64,000 nt of DNA from a virus, in IMG/VR virus record IMGVR_UViG_3300042455_001086, positions 186,001-250,000 of that record; one strand, written 5' to 3'. The position numbers and the translations under genes are program-made. Shown here one piece after another: positions 17,999 to 21,092 of this stretch. The first letter of the stretch is position 1, and each line of letters starts with the position of its first letter. The notes beneath the pieces were generated by a model. The model ran no database searches and had not been told where the DNA came from. It saw only the letters and a list, made by a program, of their open reading frames with translations.

Positions 17999-19015
17999 TT
18001 AATTTTTTGTTTTGTTTCTAAAATTTGTTTTTTCTTTTCTTGATAGTTTTAAAAATGGTTTTAAAAAATTTACCCAAGCGTCATCACCTTTTGGTAGAAA
18101 TTTAAAGAATCCGTCGTCCATCATCATTCTAATTAAGTTTCTATGTCCTCTTCCGTCTGGATCCAACGATTCCGAGTAATATAACCTAACCAATTCTTTT
18201 CCTTCCACTGAAATTAGTGGGTTAGCTAAATCCACTAATTTTTCGTTGATTGTGAAAAACTCTTTTCCAAATATTCCCTCTTTGGTTTTTCCACTAAGTA
18301 AATTTTGTAAAGCAACATTTCCTTTTTGTTCCGAAAGTAATGTTTTTGCCTTTGTTAAAATATCGGTATATTTTAACTCCGTATCAAGTATCTCCGGAAA
18401 AAATTTTAGGAATGTTTTTTCACCCAAATAAAATATACCATCAATATTATCCGAACTATCACCAGTTAATATTTTGTAAGTTTTAACATTATAGTGTGGT
18501 ATTTCGGATTCATAAATTTTAATCCCATCACCATTCTTATAATATCTTTTTTGTTGGGGTGAATATATACTTACCTTATCTGAAATAAGTTGTGTTAGAT
18601 CTCTATCAGATGAAAATATTGTTTTTTCTTCATCTTCAGAAATTTGACAATAATAAGCTATTAAATCGTCGGCCTCCGATTGTTCCACTTCCAATTGTCT
18701 AACAAACATTTCTTCAAGGTATTGTTTTACTCTGTTTTTTTGAGTAGTAAAAGATTGTTCTTTATAATCATCATCAACCTTTTGTTTTCTATTTAATTTA
18801 TACTTTGGGTATATAGTTCTTCTCTGTGATGATCCGGTTTCACTATCCCAACAAACAACAATTTTATTGTAATTGTTTTCTTCTAAAAATTTTCTTAAAG
18901 TGTTTAGAAAATGCCAAGTTCCACCAACATGTTCTCCATTGTTAAAGAAGTCTCTAACACCATGCACGCCTATCTTTAATAGGTTGTTACCATCGACCAA
19001 TAAGGTTTTAGTCAT
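17999..19015 (-). CDS. 5'-3' exonuclease, T4 RNase H-like
   Basis: 338 residues from the ATG at 19015, which opens with MTKTLLVDGNNLLKIGVHGV; the VDGNN(L) motif is the first acidic metal site of the PIN/FEN nuclease family. Later acidic motifs: VVCWDSETGSSQRR, EVEQSEADDLIAYY, FSSDRDLTQL and the H3TH-like LTGDSSDNIDGIFYLGEKT. The longer frame to 19111 was rejected because it lies inside the methyltransferase and precedes the conserved start. The protein removes RNA primers and flaps. The ATG overlaps the 3' end of the methyltransferase gene by 8 nt. Confidence 0.9.
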   Translation of the reverse strand: MTKTLLVDGNNLLKIGVHGVRDFFNNGEHVGGTWHFLNTLRKFLEENNYNKIVVCWDSETGSSQRRTIYPKYKLNRKQKVDDDYKEQSFTTQKNRVKQYLEEMFVRQLEVEQSEADDLIAYYCQISEDEEKTIFSSDRDLTQLISDKVSIYSPQQKRYYKNGDGIKIYESEIPHYNVKTYKILTGDSSDNIDGIFYLGEKTFLKFFPEILDTELKYTDILTKAKTLLSEQKGNVALQNLLSGKTKEGIFGKEFFTINEKLVDLANPLISVEGKELVRLYYSESLDPDGRGHRNLIRMMMDDGFFKFLPKGDDAWVNFLKPFLKLSRKEKTNFRNKTKN

Positions 19016-21092
19016 TAATTTCTTCGTTAAGTGGGTTTGACAATATTGGTTCTTCTTTTGTAATATAGTCGGATAAAAACTCTGTAAATATAGCTTCCAT
19101 AACAGGGACACAAATTGAGTTTCCGGCTAGTGCGACATGTGCTGTATTAGACAATGAGGTTGTAAGTAATAAATCAATATCTTGTTCTTTAACACCCATA
19201 AATCTATACCCTTCTCTTGCTGTAATAGTTCTCACTCTACCATCTTCTGTTAGAATTTGTGGTGATCCACTTGTTGTTAAAGTTGGGGAACACCCATCAA
19301 CAGAATAAATTCTTCTTGCCTGATCGTAGCTAATGTCATCTCTTCTACCGATTAATTTACAGATTGTGTGTTTTTTTGGTTGATGTGGTGTAAATTGACA
19401 ATTAACAATCAGATTTGGATTAAAGTTTTCTTCAATGAACGGTCTCATAGGAATTCGTTCTTTTTTGTGATTATCCACATTCATCATTTTTTCTTTAACC
19501 TCATCAATACTACTATTAAGAACGGATACCATAAAAACTCTTTCTCTATTTTGGGGACATCCGAAATCAGCACCATTCAATACTCTCCAGAAAGAACTAT
19601 ACCCAAGTCCTCTTAAAAAATAGATATGTTTTTGAAAATTATCAATGTGATTTTTTGATATTAGGTTTTTAACATTTTCCATCAAAAGATACTTTGGTCT
19701 ATTGGTACTTAATAATCTTTCAACTTCAAATAGTAATCCACTCCTTGTACCTTCTTTAATTCCTTTTTGAATTCCAGAAATTGAAATGTCCTGACAATTA
19801 TGGGCGATACAACCATTTGCTGTGAATGAATGGTCTTCATCTACTTCAATATCATAAACAAATTCAGTATTATTTGTATTAATAATACCTTTAATTGGTG
19901 TCCAAATAAAACCATTATCAAAAAAAGATTTTTTATTTTTACTTTGGTTTAAATCAAAAGCAATTGTGTAACTATCTCTTTGATTAACATATCTACCATC
20001 AATAATGTATTTATCTTTATTTTTTGTTTTATAAATAGAATAAGGTACATTATAACATTTTGCAATACATTGTCCAATACCATAAATTAATTCACGACTT
20101 ACACTTATAATTCTTTGTCTTGTTGAATTTTGATAAAAGCTTCCATCCGCGGAAAAATAACCCTGGATAAATGATGTCAAAAGATTTCTAGGTAAATCAA
20201 AAATTGTATTAGTCAATTTCTTACCGTGAGCATACTTCCCAAATTGTTGGACAAATAAACCAATTTCTTTTTTTGGTAAATGTATCTTATATGTTGATCC
20301 ATCTCTAACAACTGTCGCATTAATTTTCAATCTTTCCAATCTTTCACTAATTTCTTGTAATTCAGAATCATTTTTATTTGTACAACAAATTATTATACCT
20401 CCTTGGTGTCTCATCCAGCCATCACCAATATATCTTCCAATTAACCACCAAAAATCATTATTATCCATATATTTTGATAATTCATTTTTGTGTCTAGTTT
20501 TTCTACCGTCACCCCATTTAAAATCAATCCCATCCCACTTTGGTATAATACTATTTTGATTTATTGCAACACCAAAATAATCATTACTTGTCAAGTCCTT
20601 ACATTCTTTCCAATAAGGCTCTGTTAAATTATTTTTATCTCCATCAATTTTACTAACAACATAAAATCTGTGGTTTTCAGTTGTTTTTAATTCGTCAAAT
20701 ATTGGTGATTTAACACTCCAAATTTCTTTTTTACCTTGATCAAATTTGTTTGTAACTTTTTTATATGTGTTAGTATGTGTCAAAACCAAATCATCAATTT
20801 CAACATCAACAATATTTTTATACCCAGTATCTGTCAATACTAATGTATCTTTTGTAAAACAAGGAAATGAATAGGTTAATAAATCACATTGTGGTAATGT
20901 GTTTTCATTAACCATTCTTATGTCACCAAGATTACCGTGAGTTGTTGTGTGTAACGCATTATAACACTCATTCGCTTGTTTGAAATTATCACAGTTAGCA
21001 ACACTTTCATAATCCACACCAATGTATTTAAGTGCCAACTCTTGGGTTCCGTATCCGGAAAATAACGATACTACTTTTAATTTACTATTCAT
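19008..21092 (-). CDS. C5 cytosine DNA methyltransferase with intein
   Basis: 694-residue precursor. Extein 1 (1-77) carries motif I (VVSLFSGYGTQELAL) and ends LLTYSFP; extein 2 (433-694) begins CQDISISG, giving PCQ (motif IV) after splicing. Further motifs: MENV (VI), QNRERVF (VIII), GNSICVPV (X). Spliced length would be 339 residues, normal for M.HhaI-type enzymes. Residues 78-432 are an intein (separate entry). The mature enzyme would methylate cytosine at C5, probably to protect phage DNA from host restriction; the recognition sequence cannot be read. It lies between uvsX and the exonuclease gene in the replication block. Confidence 0.93.
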   Translation of the reverse strand: MNSKLKVVSLFSGYGTQELALKYIGVDYESVANCDNFKQANECYNALHTTTHGNLGDIRMVNENTLPQCDLLTYSFPCFTKDTLVLTDTGYKNIVDVEIDDLVLTHTNTYKKVTNKFDQGKKEIWSVKSPIFDELKTTENHRFYVVSKIDGDKNNLTEPYWKECKDLTSNDYFGVAINQNSIIPKWDGIDFKWGDGRKTRHKNELSKYMDNNDFWWLIGRYIGDGWMRHQGGIIICCTNKNDSELQEISERLERLKINATVVRDGSTYKIHLPKKEIGLFVQQFGKYAHGKKLTNTIFDLPRNLLTSFIQGYFSADGSFYQNSTRQRIISVSRELIYGIGQCIAKCYNVPYSIYKTKNKDKYIIDGRYVNQRDSYTIAFDLNQSKNKKSFFDNGFIWTPIKGIINTNNTEFVYDIEVDEDHSFTANGCIAHNCQDISISGIQKGIKEGTRSGLLFEVERLLSTNRPKYLLMENVKNLISKNHIDNFQKHIYFLRGLGYSSFWRVLNGADFGCPQNRERVFMVSVLNSSIDEVKEKMMNVDNHKKERIPMRPFIEENFNPNLIVNCQFTPHQPKKHTICKLIGRRDDISYDQARRIYSVDGCSPTLTTSGSPQILTEDGRVRTITAREGYRFMGVKEQDIDLLLTTSLSNTAHVALAGNSICVPVMEAIFTEFLSDYITKEEPILSNPLNEEIND
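19797..20861 (-). mobile_element. Intein with LAGLIDADG homing endonuclease
   Basis: 355 residues (78-432 of the precursor). Block A begins Cys78 (CFTKDTLVLT). Block B has TENH with T138 and H141. Block F is FVYDIEVDEDHSFTANG. Block G ends Ala-His-Asn (H431, N432) before Cys433. All residues needed for splicing are present. The endonuclease has both LAGLIDADG helices: LIGRYIGDG (217-225, Asp224) and FIQGYFSADG (308-317, Asp316), so homing activity looks intact. The insertion is exactly before the catalytic Cys of the methyltransferase. Confidence 0.93.

Follow-up and report, generated by a model that had tools for sequence, protein, structure and literature searches.

An intein within a cytosine methyltransferase gene

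The window analysed here is a stretch of 64,000 nucleotides, running from base 186001 to base 250000 in the record of an uncultivated virus (257 kb). It includes a co-directional replication block coding for a gp32-like ssDNA-binding protein, a protein with a weak RecA/UvsX-like match, a DNA methyltransferase, a 5'-3' exonuclease and a DnaB-like helicase. The methyltransferase ORF matches the PF00145 (DNA_methylase) profile with E=1.9e-53 in two separate stretches, the second of which starts at residue 433, or profile position 71. Motif I, a Pro-Cys pair divided between residues 77 and 433, an ENV motif and the C-terminal motifs are all recognizable, and together with the profile match these place the protein among the C5 cytosine methyltransferases. 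A match to PHROG 36001 (residues 4-526) likewise spans both parts.

Table 1. Positions within the window of the methyltransferase gene, its intein and their conserved elements.
Feature	Positions	Strand	Evidence
C5 cytosine DNA methyltransferase gene, intein-interrupted, 694 aa	19008..21092	(-)	ORF 21092..19008, PF00145
N-extein, residues 1-77, ending ...LTYSFP; holds SAM-binding motif I	20862..21092	(-)	Two-part PF00145 match; uninterrupted in intein-free relatives
Methyltransferase motif I, SLFSGYGTQELAL, residues 9-21	21030..21068	(-)	Sequence; invariant in alignments A1 and A2
Full-length intein, 355 aa, residues 78-432, CFTKD...GCIAHN	19797..20861	(-)	PF14890, intein_Cterm, intein-free relatives, alignments
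Intein Cys1, residue 78, first splicing nucleophile	20859..20861	(-)	Unchanged in every aligned intein allele
Block B T-x-x-H, TENH, residues 138-141	20670..20681	(-)	T, N and H invariant in 8/8 alleles (A3)
First LAGLIDADG motif, LIGRYIGDG, residues 217-225	20418..20444	(-)	LAGLIDADG_3 in two stretches; GRYIGDG invariant
Second LAGLIDADG motif, IQGYFSADG, residues 309-317	20142..20168	(-)	PF14528 strongest at 306-363; SADG invariant
Block F, VYDIEVDEDHSF, residues 412-423	19824..19859	(-)	intein_Cterm, eight-allele alignment
Block G and junction, NGCIAHN|C, residues 426-433	19794..19817	(-)	NCBIfam intein_Cterm E=1.3e-9
Cys433, intein +1 residue and, after splicing, catalytic cysteine of motif IV (PCQD)	19794..19796	(-)	PF00145 resumption; M.MpeI/HhaI alignment
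C-extein, residues 433-694, motif IV onward, ENV at 472-474	19011..19796	(-)	PF00145, PDB comparison

The residues between the two stretches match PF14890 (Intein_splicing; E=8.5e-13, 48.8 bits against a cut-off of 35.8), with the match ending at residue 432, as well as PF14528 (LAGLIDADG_3; E=4.3e-12) and, at residues 411-433, the NCBIfam model intein_Cterm (38 bits against 15.6). Three further models score below their cut-offs, namely intein_Nterm at residues 78-145 (E=0.0023, 18.9 bits against a curated 24.5), Hint_2, and LAGLIDADG_2 at residues 221-278. Given the domain E-values and the existence of 62 intein-free relatives in which the junction is continuous, chance is excluded as a source of this arrangement. 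A preliminary description of this DNA had placed an intein in the catalytic Pro-Cys motif of a C5 methyltransferase, to be checked by Hint and LAGLIDADG profile searches, and that observation is confirmed. Its coordinates also prove exact to the base, since codon 78 occupies 20861..20859 and codon 432 occupies 19799..19797 on the minus strand.

All of the residues characteristic of a class-1 intein are present (C78, T138-x-x-H141, H431-N432 and C433) and are invariant in the aligned alleles. Eight aligned intein alleles, which share 65-92% identity with that of the window, all retain Cys1, the T-x-N-H signature, the aspartates of both LAGLIDADG motifs, block F and the penultimate His, and every allele ends in Asn. 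Two motifs that each keep an acidic residue in eight of eight divergent alleles place the element in the LAGLIDADG family, and the earlier impression that both motifs are intact holds.

The motif IV cysteine is the established catalytic nucleophile of C5 methyltransferases. When the extein is compared with PDB entries, ...SFPC and CQDIS jointly align on Cys135 of M.MpeI and Cys81 of M.HhaI, and therefore residue 433 is the catalytic cysteine. The identity of the intein, its boundaries and the proposal that its +1 Cys is the catalytic residue are thus supported. M.MpeI and M.HhaI, neither of which has an intein, match the extein best in both sequence and fold, and the predicted structure of one intein-free orthologue (L021; pLDDT 73.5) finds M.MpeI as its best PDB match (4dkj, E=2.2e-23). 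Because identity in the fold match is only 27-29%, the CpG specificity of M.MpeI should not be assumed for the phage protein. Similarly, the CpG observed/expected ratio of the window (0.63) does not disclose a target, as GpC is also low (0.72). An AlphaFold2 model of the intein-bearing precursor, built from an 11-sequence alignment, reached a mean pLDDT of 41 and a pTM of 0.31; it offered no structural support and was set aside. The same genome encodes a second C5 methyltransferase outside the window, an intein-free protein of 277 aa with the motif GGSPCRGFS (L003 1021..1854 (-), G000:C1 ~160.4-161.3 kb).

Intein-free alleles and signs of movement

Intein-free alleles, which the preliminary description had proposed to seek in related phages, are carried by 62 close relatives among viral contigs. 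Each encodes an uninterrupted enzyme of about 340 aa in which S[FY]PCQD(I/V)S continues across the junction, such that the intein is absent exactly and in frame, a pattern by which class-1 inteins are recognized. The first scan of viral contigs gave 17 intein-bearing relatives (two of them ending at a contig end), and a scan with the intein only added four contigs and one further allele, bringing the intein-bearing contigs to 21. The gene neighbourhood is identical in the two classes, and both kinds of allele occur in contigs of one metagenome, for instance 3300043466 (L005, L077) and 3300044695 (L009, L055, L078). The DNA at the junction is well conserved among intein-free alleles, ranking 86 of 789 entropy windows, and is not the top stretch of the gene. 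When bacterial and archaeal genome contigs were scanned with the intein, a search that reaches close relatives only, no relative was found, and nothing in the phage collection closely matches the region at the DNA level.

On a tree built from extein DNA only, the intein label changes seven times, with at least six changes forced by starred branches; gains are indistinguishable from losses in this count, and the intein has been gained or lost repeatedly. It has also been transferred between diverged exteins. The window and contig L008 are 75.3% identical in extein DNA (dS 1.55) and 91.9% identical in intein DNA (dS 0.26), with an abrupt shift in identity at both junctions. An intein more alike than its extein is the signature of homing, and together with the label changes it indirectly supports movement into intein-free alleles. 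Median dN/dS is 0.10 in Hint-N, 0.11 in the extein and 0.19 in the endonuclease region, which shows that the endonuclease region, too, is under purifying selection.

A further comparison involves L082, which is empty, and L014/L015, which carry the intein. These are 97% alike across most of the N-extein, then differ at 13 sites in the 60 bases upstream of the junction and at none in the 212 bases downstream. We read this pattern as a probable one-sided conversion tract, while noting that other recombination patches in the same genes urge caution; general recombination is evidently common here and could partly account for the distribution of alleles. Taken together, the tree, the dS contrast, the putative conversion tract and the dN/dS values point to an active or recently active homing intein. 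We are highly confident in describing this element as a class-1, LAGLIDADG-bearing and still mobile intein at the catalytic Pro-Cys bond of an orphan phage C5 cytosine methyltransferase.

An alternative is that the intein splices but no longer moves, its endonuclease being inactive and its alleles inherited vertically. There is precedent at this very site, because the intein of phage Yoloswag has apparently lost its LAGLIDADG aspartates (WWLCGHWVSNGT and FIYGFQSRCAS). However, both aspartates are invariant in the intein family of the window, and the constraint on the endonuclease region, the excess likeness of the window and L008 inteins over their exteins and the number of label changes on the tree all run against loss of mobility, which we consider unlikely.

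Predicted splicing and its consequences for the enzyme

We infer that splicing occurs in vivo and yields an enzyme that methylates a particular target sequence. The gene would be expressed as a single precursor in which the Hint domain shifts the N-extein to Cys78 and then to Cys433. Cyclization of Asn432 would then release the intein, leaving a mature enzyme of 339 aa with the sequence SFPCQDIS. These steps follow the standard class-1 splicing chemistry summarized in PMC8616854. Cys433 would be used twice, as the acceptor nucleophile in splicing and then as the DNA methylation nucleophile that attacks cytosine. With motif I in the N-extein and motif IV in the C-extein, 355 residues apart in the precursor, methylation before splicing is unlikely, and the methyltransferase can soundly be expected to be inactive until splicing.

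Because the splicing and catalytic nucleophile are one residue, loss or blockage of splicing would cost the phage the enzyme. Imprecise deletion of the intein would be selected against, which makes this a clean case for intein persistence at active sites. During co-infection, the endonuclease would be expected to cleave an intein-free allele at the conserved catalytic-motif codons, after which repair would introduce a copy of the intein. Its target would be DNA coding for a catalytic motif, which the host gene can hardly alter. Pro at the -1 position is unfavourable for the first splicing step in several model inteins, and it is invariant at this junction; efficient splicing is thus not a given.

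The mobile intein proposed here might instead be retained for the benefit of the phage, with conditional splicing timing methylation during infection. Activity depends on splicing for any active-site intein, and two papers describe conditional splicing in other hosts such as DnaB (PMC7360933, PMC6195587). Most close relatives nevertheless have the gene in an unchanged neighbourhood but without the intein. The intein is thus dispensable, and its occurrence follows the pattern of a selfish element; we see little prospect for a regulatory switch. That the intein has decayed, with splicing lost and the gene dead, is very improbable, for although the -1 Pro may slow splicing, the splicing residues are all conserved in diverged alleles, the frame is open, and extein and intein both evolve under purifying selection.

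The same insertion site in other phages

Deposited proteins that we read carry an insertion at the P|C site (the bar marks the junction) in phages Nyseid, B22, Yoloswag, SNUABM_23 and fHe-Yen9-02 and gut phage MT835477, and also in P1 isolate OP279344, Mannheimia phage 587AP2 and EBPR siphovirus 2; in Pseudomonas phage Lana, an intein occupies the equivalent position, with SPD|C. The insertion site is already present in databases and hence is not new there. The view that a C5 methyltransferase is an unusual intein host consequently stands for the literature searched and fails for deposited phages, many of which have an intein at the same site. No paper on a C5-methyltransferase intein was found in that literature, which lacked most subscription journals, and we therefore do not claim priority of report.

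A search with the intein only matched 109 records in the phage collection, 48 of them from Erwinia phages; among the matches listed, annotations include methyltransferase or methylase, hypothetical protein, ribonucleotide reductase and a few others. The same search matched 128 plasmid records and, among the matches listed, these are annotated as either Dam-family or cytosine methyltransferases, in line with expectation for P1 Dmt. N6/N4 DNA methylases belong to an unrelated methyltransferase family that is not known to have a catalytic cysteine. The methylase inteins found in the literature searched, which likewise reside in phage DNA methyltransferases, are those of mycobacteriophage N6/N4 enzymes (PMC5050341) and of an actinophage methylase family (PMC9957025).

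A close counterpart is Dmt of the P1 group (RCS47, vB_EcoM-Ro157c2YLVW, OP279344), which also has a LAGLIDADG intein at the catalytic P|C bond of a C5 methyltransferase domain (GTP|C...VHN|CQAFS) and for which intein-free alleles exist in reference P1 and P7. It differs in that its intein is 341 aa long and ~26% identical to that of the window, and in that the host protein is fused with an adenine methyltransferase. When the flanks of the 1023-nt RCS47 intein are joined, the resulting 2265 nt align with reference P1 dmt with 26 mismatches and no gap, and the P1 and P7 dmt pairs have equal lengths after such joining. With these natural plus/minus pairs, both homing and splicing-gated methylation can be tested directly in laboratory E. 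coli. The window intein is, in this respect, a cleanly testable example of an already known kind of element. The inteins of the plus/minus dmt alleles (L092, L128, L129, L130) are unannotated. Between P7 and OP279344, the 150 bases on each side of the junction contain 17 differing sites upstream and 11 downstream, with none from +1 to +22.

The same motif IV bond is interrupted in PHROG 36001 and the Erwinia/Yersinia jumbo phages (Yoloswag, the SNUABM series, fHe-Yen9-02), and in Lactobacillus phage Nyseid, Propionibacterium phage B22 and MT835477. These jumbo phages, Nyseid, B22 and MT835477 have inteins with only ~20-31% identity to that of the window, and the LAGLIDADG motifs of the Erwinia phage inteins are apparently degenerate. 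In Mannheimia phage 587AP2, the intein-bearing methyltransferase is split into overlapping ORFs gp35 and gp34 (L091 1264..3100); this copy looks broken because of the split and because its C-extein no longer follows the usual motif immediately after HN|CQ.

The closest intein in the phage collection is that of NrdD (class III ribonucleotide reductase) in Lactococcus phages 949/AM4/P1048, with 33% full-length identity, a little more than the 31% of the nearest P|C-site intein, although it occupies another host gene and site (QRV|C...VKN|CGYL). The backbone of a cross-host intein tree is poorly supported, with long branches meeting, and therefore we do not claim a single origin of the P|C-site inteins, which may reflect shared ancestry or repeated invasion. 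We tentatively suggest that, in phages of unrelated hosts, inteins have landed time and again at the motif IV catalytic cysteine of C5 methyltransferases, and that the Pro-Cys of pyrimidine-C5-methylating enzymes, including the thymidylate synthase of Aeromonas phage PS1, repeatedly supplies the +1 residue. If so, such inteins would form a class apparently not described before. The PS1 enzyme, annotated plainly as thymidylate synthase, has its intein at the apparent catalytic Pro-Cys (LTP|C...THN|CHFSF; L127 781..3039 (+)).

Other inteins occur in the same phage, outside the window. The terminase large subunit contains a LAGLIDADG intein (YILG|C...THN|CDVSRGD; L002 559..3564 (-), G000:C1 ~20.4-21.4 kb), and an ORF of 1343 aa has two more intein splicing domains with HNH-type endonuclease matches (L121 1..2736 (-), G000:C1 16.6-18.1 kb). 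Counting that of the methyltransferase, this brings the inteins of the phage to at least four. Elsewhere in viral contigs, ribonucleotide reductase ORFs (L118, L119) contain apparently three inteins each.
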